Assembly: GCF_000012645.1 (NCBI RefSeq)
Contig: NC_007577.1
Location: 186,001-250,000, forward strand
From: Prochlorococcus marinus str. MIT 9312
GTDB lineage: Bacteria > Cyanobacteriota > Cyanobacteriia > PCC-6307 > Cyanobiaceae
Direction of reading: 5' to 3'
DNA length: 64,000 bases
The translations under genes and the position numbers were made by a program. The notes below the pieces were generated by a model. That model worked only from the letters and a program-made list of their open reading frames with translations. It was not told where the DNA came from and searched no databases. Position 1 is the first letter of the stretch, and each line of letters begins with the position of its first letter. This document shows, piece after piece, positions 28,938-44,322 of the stretch.

Positions 28938-29156
28938 TTAATCATCATAAACAAGACACTTTGGTTCATCTGGGTTGGCATCACAAAATAATTCTAAAGC
29001 ATTTGGATCATGTTTATCCTCTGGATGATGATCTTTATACTCTTCGAGTTCTTTTAGTTCTTCAGTTAGATGTCTGACCTTTGGAAGATTGCCCTCTGCT
29101 TTAGCAGATTCGATTTCCGATTGATCTTTTTCGATGTGTTCGTCAATGGATTTCAT
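28938..29156 (-). CDS. cp12: CP12-family Calvin cycle regulator, C-terminal-cysteine form
   Basis: CP12 is a small disordered protein that binds GAPDH and phosphoribulokinase and shuts down the Calvin cycle in the dark. The 72 residues end in the typical GAPDH-binding tail with a cysteine pair (FCDANPDEPKCLVYDD). The N-terminal cysteine pair that serves PRK binding in full-length CP12 is absent, and the usual AWDxVEEL core is replaced by VRHLTEELKELEEYKDH. It may therefore bind GAPDH but handle PRK differently. Identification rests on the C-terminal third. Confidence 0.85.
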   Translation of the reverse strand: MKSIDEHIEKDQSEIESAKAEGNLPKVRHLTEELKELEEYKDHHPEDKHDPNALELFCDANPDEPKCLVYDD

Positions 29157-29279
29157 TTGAAGCTTTTTCGTACTTTAGTAGACATACATAACATAGTTAA
29201 TTTCTAATGAAATTGCATTATCTATGAACAAAATAAGTGTTCATTACAACATCATTTTTTTTTAATTGTTTTTTATATT

Positions 29280-41990: not shown

Positions 41991-42575
41991 TTATTTGAAT
42001 TTTGGTGTTCTGTCACCTTTTATTCTTTTACTTACACTTCTACTATTTTTGAGATACCAACGCCATTTTATATTTTTTGCCTTGGATATGCCAATTCTCG
42101 AAGTTTGAATAAGATCTTTTTCGCCTAGAATTGAGTCTCTTTGAGAAATCCATAAAGAATTGTTATTAAGAACTTCAAGCGAGTTAAATGATATGTCGAT
42201 ACCGAATGTCTTAGTAACTAGACCAGGTCCCGAAGCTAATCTTTCATTCTGTTTAGGGATAAATACCGCCCTGATTAATACACCACTCGCAAAAGATTCT
42301 TTATCAGTAACTATGTTTAAGCAATGATGAATGCCATAAGATTTGTAAATATAAAATGTCCCAGGTTTGCCAAATAATGATTTATTTGATTCAGTTATTT
42401 TGCGATAGCCATGACATGCTTCTTCTTCCTGTGAATAAGCTTCAGTTTCAACGATAATCCCCTTGATTTTATCTTTCTCATTAGTTTGTTTTATGAGGTG
42501 ACAACCTATTAAATCAGGGGCTACAAGTTTAGAGTGCCTATAAAAAAAATTTTTTGGAAATAAGTGTTCTTTTAT
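41991..42575 (-). CDS. mpg: Methylpurine-DNA glycosylase (AAG/MPG family), with no standard start codon
   Basis: The frame is open from just after a TGA (42581-42579) to TAA (41993-41991) and encodes an AAG-type 3-methyladenine DNA glycosylase for base-excision repair. Family landmarks are APDLIGCHLI, the catalytic-glutamate strand GIIVETEAYSQEEEACHGYR, FYIYKSYGIHHCLNIV, AVLIRA-like GVLIRAVF and the ASGPGLVTKTFGI block. The whole frame contains no ATG, GTG or TTG. The only start-like codon between the stop and the conserved LFPKNFF is ATA at 42575, giving 194 residues (ATA-AAA-GAA). A shift in the A6-T8 run (8 to 7 T) would join a TTG at 42580, but this would lose the conserved Pro of LFPKNFF. 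Confidence 0.85.
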   Translation of the reverse strand: MKEHLFPKNFFYRHSKLVAPDLIGCHLIKQTNEKDKIKGIIVETEAYSQEEEACHGYRKITESNKSLFGKPGTFYIYKSYGIHHCLNIVTDKESFASGVLIRAVFIPKQNERLASGPGLVTKTFGIDISFNSLEVLNNNSLWISQRDSILGEKDLIQTSRIGISKAKNIKWRWYLKNSRSVSKRIKGDRTPKFK

Positions 42576-42737
42576 TTTTCAATAATTATCTAATATTATT
42601 TTTAGCTTAGAAAGATAATTGAGGCTATTAATTAAATTGATTTTCAAAAAGACATGATTATTTCATTTAATTATTTGAAATTTAAAAGATATATTAATAA
42701 AATATTTTAAATAAACTATTATTGAATAAATAACAAT

Positions 42738-43040
42738 ATGAATAGAATGATAAAAGTAACTAAAGAAGAGGTAAAAAAAGTTGCCCATTTAGCAAGATTG
42801 GAACTGAACAAGGATGAAATTAATAATCACGCAGAACAATTAGAAAAAATATTGGAATATATTAAACATCTTGAAAAAATTGATACTGATGATGTGCCCT
42901 GTACAACAAGAGCTATAGAAGTTATTAATGTATTTAGAAAAGACGATAAGAAAAATTCTGATTGCACTGAAGAGATTTTAGAGTTAGGCCCATCTAGAGA
43001 AGATAAATACTTTAAAGTACCAAAAATTATGAATGAATGA
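42738..43040 (+). CDS. gatC: Aspartyl/glutamyl-tRNA amidotransferase subunit C
   Basis: GatC is the small linker subunit of GatCAB, which converts Glu-tRNA(Gln) to Gln-tRNA(Gln). The 100 residues show the family pattern VKKVAHLARLELNKDEINNH and LEKILEYIKHLEKIDTDDV, with a proline-poor C terminus (LGPSREDKYFKVPKIMNE). ATG at 42747 is an equally possible start, three codons on. It is divergent from the glycosylase gene (162 bases) and stops 1 base from crtR. Confidence 0.9.
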   Translation: MNRMIKVTKEEVKKVAHLARLELNKDEINNHAEQLEKILEYIKHLEKIDTDDVPCTTRAIEVINVFRKDDKKNSDCTEEILELGPSREDKYFKVPKIMNE

Positions 43041-43041
43041 A

Positions 43042-44073
43042 TTATTTGCTGCCTATAAAAGTTTTATTAACTATCTTTAATAAAACTTTTTTTATTTTAT
43101 AGCCTGGATACAAATTTATAATTTTCCTTATTTTACCTCTCTTTTTGCTATGACTCCTTATACCTATAAATAAATCATAAATAAAGTTAAAAATGTCTTC
43201 TTTACTTTCAAAAATTCCAACTCTTTGAGGTGAGCCTTTCGTATCCAATAATGGCTTAGTTTTTTCATATGCTACTTTGTATTCAAACCAAGGAATGGAA
43301 GGCCAAAGATGGTGAATAAGATGGTAATTTTGGCCCATTATTAATAAATTCATAAATTTGCTTGGATAAACTCGAGAATTTATCCACTTGTTTCTTGATC
43401 GAAAAGGTCTATGGGGGAGATAATCAAAAAATATTCCTAAAGTAACTCCCACCATTAATGCAGGTCCGAACCATAGATTATAGATTAGATTCATGAAGTC
43501 AAACTTTATACCTGCCAAGATTATGGATATGAAGATTGACCTTTCAATTCCCCATTGGAGTAATTCATATTTTCGCCAAAGTTTCCTTTGAAAGAAAAAA
43601 ACTTCATGATAAAAAAATCTCGGAGCAATTAGCCAAATTGGACCAAAAGTACTGACAATATGATCTGGGTCATTTTTGGGATGATTTACGTGAATATGAT
43701 GTTGTAAATGTACTCTTGTAAAAACTGGAAAACTAAATCCTAAAAGAATTGCTGAGCCATGACCCATTGCTTGATTTATCCAAGGTACCGGATGGGCCGC
43801 TTTATGACATGCATCATGAATTACAGTACCTTCAATATGCAAAGCTAAAAATGCAGTTGCTACAAGTAAGGGTAGAGGCCAAACACCTCTATACCATTGC
43901 CATATGCTAAGAAAAGCAAGAAAATAACCTCCAAAGAAAAGAGCTAATGTAGGATTCCAAAAACTTGGCGGATCTACGTAATTTTTTATCTCTTTTTGCC
44001 AATTAAATGTTTTGGAAGAATTAGTAATTTTTGTTGTATTTTTATTGTTTAAGTTTGAAATCGTTTCTTTTAT
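43042..44073 (-). CDS. crtR: Beta-carotene hydroxylase CrtR, with ATA as the apparent start codon
   Basis: CrtR is a di-iron membrane hydroxylase that makes zeaxanthin from beta-carotene. Histidine boxes are visible: HDACHKAAH, HLQHHIHVNHP and HLIHHLWP. The conserved RVHLQHH, FFYHEVFFFQRKLWRKYE and DYLPHRPF support CrtR. Counting from a TTG at 43842 would remove the first hydrophobic helix and about 77 residues. The frame is open upstream to a TAA (44079-44077), with a sensible N terminus (SKTFNWQKEIKNYVDPPSFW). No ATG, GTG or TTG occurs there; ATA at 44073 (ATA-AAA-GAA) is two codons after the stop and gives 343 residues, the usual family length. Confidence 0.9.
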   Translation of the reverse strand: MKETISNLNNKNTTKITNSSKTFNWQKEIKNYVDPPSFWNPTLALFFGGYFLAFLSIWQWYRGVWPLPLLVATAFLALHIEGTVIHDACHKAAHPVPWINQAMGHGSAILLGFSFPVFTRVHLQHHIHVNHPKNDPDHIVSTFGPIWLIAPRFFYHEVFFFQRKLWRKYELLQWGIERSIFISIILAGIKFDFMNLIYNLWFGPALMVGVTLGIFFDYLPHRPFRSRNKWINSRVYPSKFMNLLIMGQNYHLIHHLWPSIPWFEYKVAYEKTKPLLDTKGSPQRVGIFESKEDIFNFIYDLFIGIRSHSKKRGKIRKIINLYPGYKIKKVLLKIVNKTFIGSK

Positions 44074-44240
44074 TCTTTAAATAATATAACTAATATTTCC
44101 ATTATTTCCATGTGATTCCATACTCAGATCTAAAAAAAATTTTTAAAGAGATATTTAATTTAATTTTTATGTGTCAAATTAATCATCTTAAGTTAAAAAC
44201 ATTTTTCAAATAAACCTCTTTCAATTATTATTTTATGTGA

Positions 44241-44322
44241 GCGGTCGTGGCGGAATTGGTAGACGCGCGAGTTTTAGGTACTCGTATCTTCGGGTGTGGG
44301 AGTTCAAGTCTCCCCGACCGCA
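44241..44322 (+). tRNA. tRNA-Leu (anticodon UAG)
   Basis: The acceptor stem GCGGTCG/CGACCGC, anticodon arm CGAGT-TTTAGGT-ACTCG with anticodon TAG, a class II variable arm (ATCTTCGGGTGT region) and the T-arm GTTCAAGTC give a complete 82-base leucine tRNA reading CUA-type codons. The discriminator is A, and the 3' CCA is not encoded. Confidence 0.97.

Follow-up and report, generated by a model that had tools for sequence, protein, structure and literature searches.

Isoleucine codons as proposed translation starts

In the Prochlorococcus DNA analysed here, the genes for a methylpurine-DNA glycosylase and a putative carotenoid hydroxylase (crtR) are likely to start translation at isoleucine codons, which depart from AUG in the third base alone, and the same goes for at least one gene elsewhere in this genome, comB. 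Initiation on these codons is probably of the ordinary formyl-methionine kind and probably weak. The sequence basis consists of intact and conserved frames, the lack of a standard start for the full protein, conserved isoleucine codons and, for comB, exact alignment of the codon with the ATG or GTG start of other genera; from this we infer which codon is used, that formyl-methionine comes first, that yield is low and that there may be some benefit. A tendency of the lineage to keep isoleucine codons (AUA, AUU or AUC) as starts appears supported, because the AUA state of the glycosylase is common to its relatives and more such genes were found in the genome. The preliminary description of this DNA had suggested a lineage-specific tolerance; the further isoleucine-start candidates in the genome favour it, and the recurrence of the glycosylase case in other genera speaks against so narrow a limit.

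The window, a stretch of 64,000 nucleotides (G000:C1:186001-250000), belongs to a source genome of 1,709,204 bases in a single contig. On its minus strand crtR is followed about 1.5 kb on by the glycosylase gene (Table 1). A short plus-strand frame between them, which we take to be gatC, has an ordinary ATG at 42738, and a tRNA-Leu gene (44241-44322, plus strand) lies just past the crtR start on the opposite strand. As first described, the glycosylase frame opens TGA AAA ATA AAA GAA and the crtR frame TAA (44077-44079) AGA ATA AAA GAA; both proved to be intact, conserved and free of ATG, GTG and TTG near the N-terminus. An open-reading-frame list limited to these three codons missed the glycosylase and shortened crtR, and gene callers that admit no others miss or truncate such genes.

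Good family matches, together with changes relative to the same-genus genome G015 that fall mainly at third codon positions, indicate that both are working genes under purifying selection. Residues 10-178 of the glycosylase align to positions 2-180 of the 181-position PF02245 profile (169.1 bits, cut-off 27, E 8e-50), and crtR matches the fatty-acid desaturase family PF00487 (115.3 bits, cut-off 29.7, E 5.2e-33); its product is thus predicted to belong to the fatty-acid desaturase superfamily, with CrtR activity putative. Changes at codon positions 1, 2 and 3 number 28, 24 and 91 for the glycosylase and 28, 25 and 146 for crtR.

Table 1. Coordinates of the glycosylase and crtR features, as positions in the window.
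Feature	Position	Strand	Basis
Methylpurine-DNA glycosylase (AAG/MPG) gene, proposed AUA start to stop	41991..42575	-	PF02245
Proposed AUA initiation codon of the glycosylase	42573..42575	-	Sole near-cognate in the 12 codons that follow the stop
In-frame TGA closing the glycosylase frame upstream	42579..42581	-	Sequence
crtR (carotenoid hydroxylase) gene, proposed AUU start to stop	43042..44061	-	PF00487; name from the preliminary description
Proposed AUU initiation codon of crtR	44059..44061	-	Aligned codon ATT or ATC in 37/37
ATA read earlier as the crtR start, probably a decayed ancestral ATG site	44071..44073	-	Alignment with G235 and G247

The glycosylase start

No ATG, GTG or TTG occurs anywhere along the glycosylase frame, and between the stop and the catalytic domain the ATA is the sole codon one base from AUG. 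Its nearest named relatives are Prochlorococcus sequences of 86-92% identity; the named set comprised the best 80 of 195, and the crtR counts given below for named loci come from 68 or 75 of these. The proposed start codon reads ATA in 79 and ATC in one of the best 80 of 195, and ATA in 31 and ATC in one of 32 aligned same-genus genes. The upstream TGA is not kept in all relatives, some of which have, for example, TTA or CGA instead.

To place the codon we counted positions back from the FF motif, where the catalytic domain begins. The interval from stop to FF held no ATG, GTG or TTG in 32 of 34 same-genus genomes examined, and each of these 32 genes had a single ATH codon among the ten that precede FF: 31 genes have it at -9 (30 ATA, 1 ATC) and one, which has lost a codon, at -8. 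The interval was likewise empty of standard codons in 71 of the best 80 of 195 named loci, the other nine having some such codon in the interval from the stop to the region of the proposed start. When 63 other-genus genomes were examined, 21 carried a glycosylase with no standard start, and in 12 of these an ATH stood at -9 (10 ATA, 1 ATC, 1 ATT), compared with 16 of the 168 position-cells from -1 to -8 in the same 21 genes; the remaining 42 had a standard codon before FF or an unclosed frame and count as ordinary or ambiguous. Translation of the window's glycosylase thus very probably begins at its AUA, and starts on AUA, AUC or AUU probably extend well past this genus.

A gene tree of 31 glycosylases was poorly resolved: the best tree required at least seven changes of the non-AUG state, its strong branches forced only one, and 19 of 500 shuffles were equally low, so that the state may have arisen only once. 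Selection against ATG at this codon was not significant. Eleven of 30 comparable A/G sites in the best 80 of 195 also lacked G, so the absence of ATG among these relatives does not demonstrate such selection, and 10 of 22 sites in the 32 same-genus genomes lacked G likewise.

The crtR start

Numbered from the proposed ATT start, the first ATG, GTG or TTG in crtR is residue 74. Frames of other genera begin with ATG in 20 of 20 loci, and in G235 and G247 the sequence ATG AAA GAA ACA/ACT ATA aligns with ATA AAA GAA ACG ATT of the window, so the ATA that the preliminary description read as the start probably marks a lost ATG. ATA is found in that column in 25 of 37 same-genus loci, beside TTA, ATT, GTA, TTT and ATG, and in 59 of 68 named loci; another named locus, L410, has ATG there. 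A stop separates the column from the coding frame in six of 37 same-genus loci and indels cut it off in two more, G154 and G126, giving eight of 37 in all. A stop follows the column in 13 of 68 named loci, in one of which (L412) the next codon is also a stop; a recount at fixed offset flagged 18, three of them falsely, leaving 15 of 75.

The codon four after the ATA is ATT in 34 and ATC in three of the 37 same-genus loci. An ISNL search in the named set presupposed isoleucine, and the codon was therefore read again at a fixed offset from a downstream motif, which anchored 75 of the 80 loci (best 80 of 195) and gave ATT in 71, ATC in two and ATA in two. A deletion of four codons displaces both ATA loci (L387 and L417) as well as L394; once this shift is allowed for, the two ATA loci read ATT. 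The codon just before the ATT varies (ACG, ACA, ACT, CCG, AAG or ATG, the last in L387 and L429), and a standard codon lies in frame upstream of it in nine of 68 named loci and one of the 37 same-genus loci.

With stops and indels between the ATA column and the frame, and ATT or ATC persisting, we rejected the AUA at 44071-44073 as the crtR start. Since ATT or ATC is kept while the ATA column decays, AUU is the likely start, the ancestral fifth codon (isoleucine) having apparently been promoted to first. The proposed use of AUA is therefore very probable for the glycosylase (ATA in 79 of the best 80 of 195) and not supported for crtR, where a stop or indel intervenes in eight of 37 loci. Upstream of crtR (44080-44130, minus strand), the ATT is preceded at a distance of about 40-50 bases by ATGCAATCA in many relatives (by ATACAATCA in some), where the window strain has a different sequence.

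Genome scans, comB and scpA

The preliminary description had called for a genome scan for intact conserved frames without a standard start. We compared 824 kb of the window genome (48% of it) with 800 kb of G015. Of 817 conserved frames, 16 in the rRNA operon were removed, and flagged frames that were antisense or conserved leaders ahead of an aligned ATG or TTG were dropped by eye. In four of the remaining 801, namely the glycosylase, crtR, comB and scpA, neither genome had a standard start. A second scan set 400 kb of G115, a genome of another genus, against the sample of the window genome (343 frames, rRNA frames included) and again flagged the glycosylase, along with another frame that lacks a standard start and a frame that we take to be release factor 2, a known frameshift case, which indicates that the scan is able to find genes of that type.

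Profile searches matched comB to PF04029 and scpA to PF02616. The proposed comB start codon is ATT in 22 of 22 same-genus loci and two of two further ones (24/24). The aligned codon is ATG in 26 and GTG in one of 27 loci from the 60 other-genus genomes that gave a match, and GTG or ATG in five of five loci of other families. A TTG lies two codons before the ATT in eight of the 22 same-genus loci and four codons before it in one. By this alignment comB is the clearest example of ATG giving way to ATT. The larger scpA subgroup has ATA in 11 and ATT in one of 12 loci and the other has GTA in four of four, one with an upstream TTG, making scpA a possible isoleucine-start gene only. Across the class no AUG, GUG or UUG was found for the full protein, a minority of crtR and comB relatives having one, and a conserved isoleucine codon stands at the expected start, with scpA divided between ATA/ATT (12/12) in one subgroup and GTA (4/4) in the other.

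Several other frames drew attention in these comparisons. A phosphoesterase-like frame outside the window (G000:C1:640909-641754, plus strand; L195-L196) has no ATG, GTG or TTG before codon 25, and its G015 counterpart has an ATG within the conserved N-terminal region; it is possibly a start loss of a single lineage. Conversely, a small conserved frame in the window (28938-29174, minus strand) has an ATG in this strain and a G015 counterpart without any ATG, GTG or TTG. In G115, the frame at G115:C1:1655495-1656295 (minus strand; L366-L367) has no standard codon near its N-terminus and is a homologue of G000:C1:260402-261181, which uses TTG.

Initiation machinery and a possible role

The unusual initiator tRNA that the preliminary description had raised for checking was not seen, nor was a change at the infC start. 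A 15-base pattern search of the genome returned one initiator-type tRNA of ordinary appearance, with a CAU anticodon and a GGG/CCC stem, and no anticodon change that would point to an altered genetic code or initiator. The 16S tail carries the usual anti-Shine-Dalgarno CCTCCT. We rejected an AUU start for infC of this genome, which begins with a plain ATG.

According to the available text of PMC10158994, IF3 demands pairing at the first two codon positions and is laxer at the third, and Staphylococcus reporters in the part of PMC13009471 available gave about 10% of the AUG yield from AUA and AUU starts. On the strength of these two observations, formyl-methionine at position one and a low yield would be expected. 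The CAU initiator tRNA would pair with the first two bases of AUA, AUU or AUC and be mismatched at the third, and the protein would begin with formyl-methionine at reduced efficiency. The codons proposed are AUA for the glycosylase, AUU for crtR (AUC in some relatives) and AUU for comB, and reduced efficiency would keep all three proteins scarce.

A broader and more tentative idea, which we regard as possible rather than probable, is that the glycosylase of marine picocyanobacteria carries a long-kept translational throttle: an isoleucine start at a fixed place, retained or regained across genera, that would hold a potentially harmful repair enzyme to few copies per cell. In streamlined Prochlorococcus the device might have come to include comB and crtR as well, and perhaps scpA, which could allow joint tuning of these genes by the level of IF3 or by growth state.

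Alternative explanations

The preliminary description proposed that both genes start at AUA within a shared context, ATAAAAGAA, acting as a lineage-specific signal. The nine bases do match and ATA is the commonest codon in the crtR column (25/37; 59/68), but the nine-mer occurs nine times in the window where 5.85 are expected, a count reached in 17 of 100 shuffles, and at the glycosylase only eight of the best 80 of 195 relatives read ATA AAA GAA, against 64 with ATA GAA GAA. We therefore rejected a common ATAAAAGAA motif as a start signal: its count is at chance level and it is not conserved. The wider upstream similarity, chosen by eye and tested post hoc, is mild; among 5000 pairs of upstream 60-mers drawn at random from AT-rich sequence, six reached its score. 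At crtR the column is followed by a stop (6/37 and 13/68), is disrupted by indels in G154 and G126, and also holds TTA, GTA and TTT; a common AUA start is refuted for crtR in the genomes carrying the stop and is improbable overall. It is also quite improbable that translation begins at a standard codon further upstream and reaches the frame through a frameshift, through readthrough of the stop, or by re-initiating once a short upstream frame has been translated. In many same-genus glycosylases an ATG does lie in frame, six codons ahead of the TGA, and ATGCAATCA precedes crtR in many relatives, but the window strain has neither (ATA ATA TTA stands in place of the glycosylase ATG), some relatives have no stop there, no conserved heptamer-like site was apparent by eye, and the scan does recover a known case of that kind, the putative release factor 2 of G115.

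That the two genes are untranslated or truncated pseudogenes would account for the absence of a standard start, and is very unlikely in view of genus-wide conservation, third-position-biased changes and full Pfam domains. Least credible of all is that both starts reflect errors of sequencing or assembly, for which no support was found. Rather than ordinary ATG codons, the relatives commonly have isoleucine codons, the same state recurring in 80 of 80 glycosylase codons (best 80 of 195) and as ATT or ATC in 37 of 37 crtR loci, and this shared state refutes an error. Initiation on isoleucine codons is the reading that we favour as probable.

Comparison with known isoleucine-codon starts

Starts on isoleucine codons are already known in other bacteria (PMC1780047, PMC9845219, PMC13009471), and the literature searched, with most subscription journals outside its coverage, yielded no report of non-AUG starts in Prochlorococcus. 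A reconstruction described in the accessible part of PMC5622118 found that one of 61,358 ancestral AUG starts had switched to AUU; our four of 801 frames were obtained by methods not comparable with it. The available texts of PMC1780047 and PMC9845219 describe AUU starts of E. coli infC and pcnB, thought to limit expression. The genes studied here resemble these in the proposed use of an isoleucine codon as start and differ in being other genes in another phylum, and the known autoregulatory infC case is absent here (ATG). Staphylococcus aureus infC, ccpN, citZ and cvfC1, as portrayed in the available part of PMC13009471, use AUA and AUU starts, as proposed here, some of them conserved between genera; those genes have extended Shine-Dalgarno motifs, whereas none was obvious, in an unsystematic look, upstream of the glycosylase or crtR.

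What appears notable in the present case is the conservation of the isoleucine starts and the extension of the state across genera in one DNA-repair gene, which offers natural examples in which to ask if selection acts to keep starts weak. As in a single-species case presented in the accessible portion of PMC1780047, the starts were deduced from conserved frames alone; unlike that case, the state is kept genus-wide in three genes and, for the glycosylase, in several genera.
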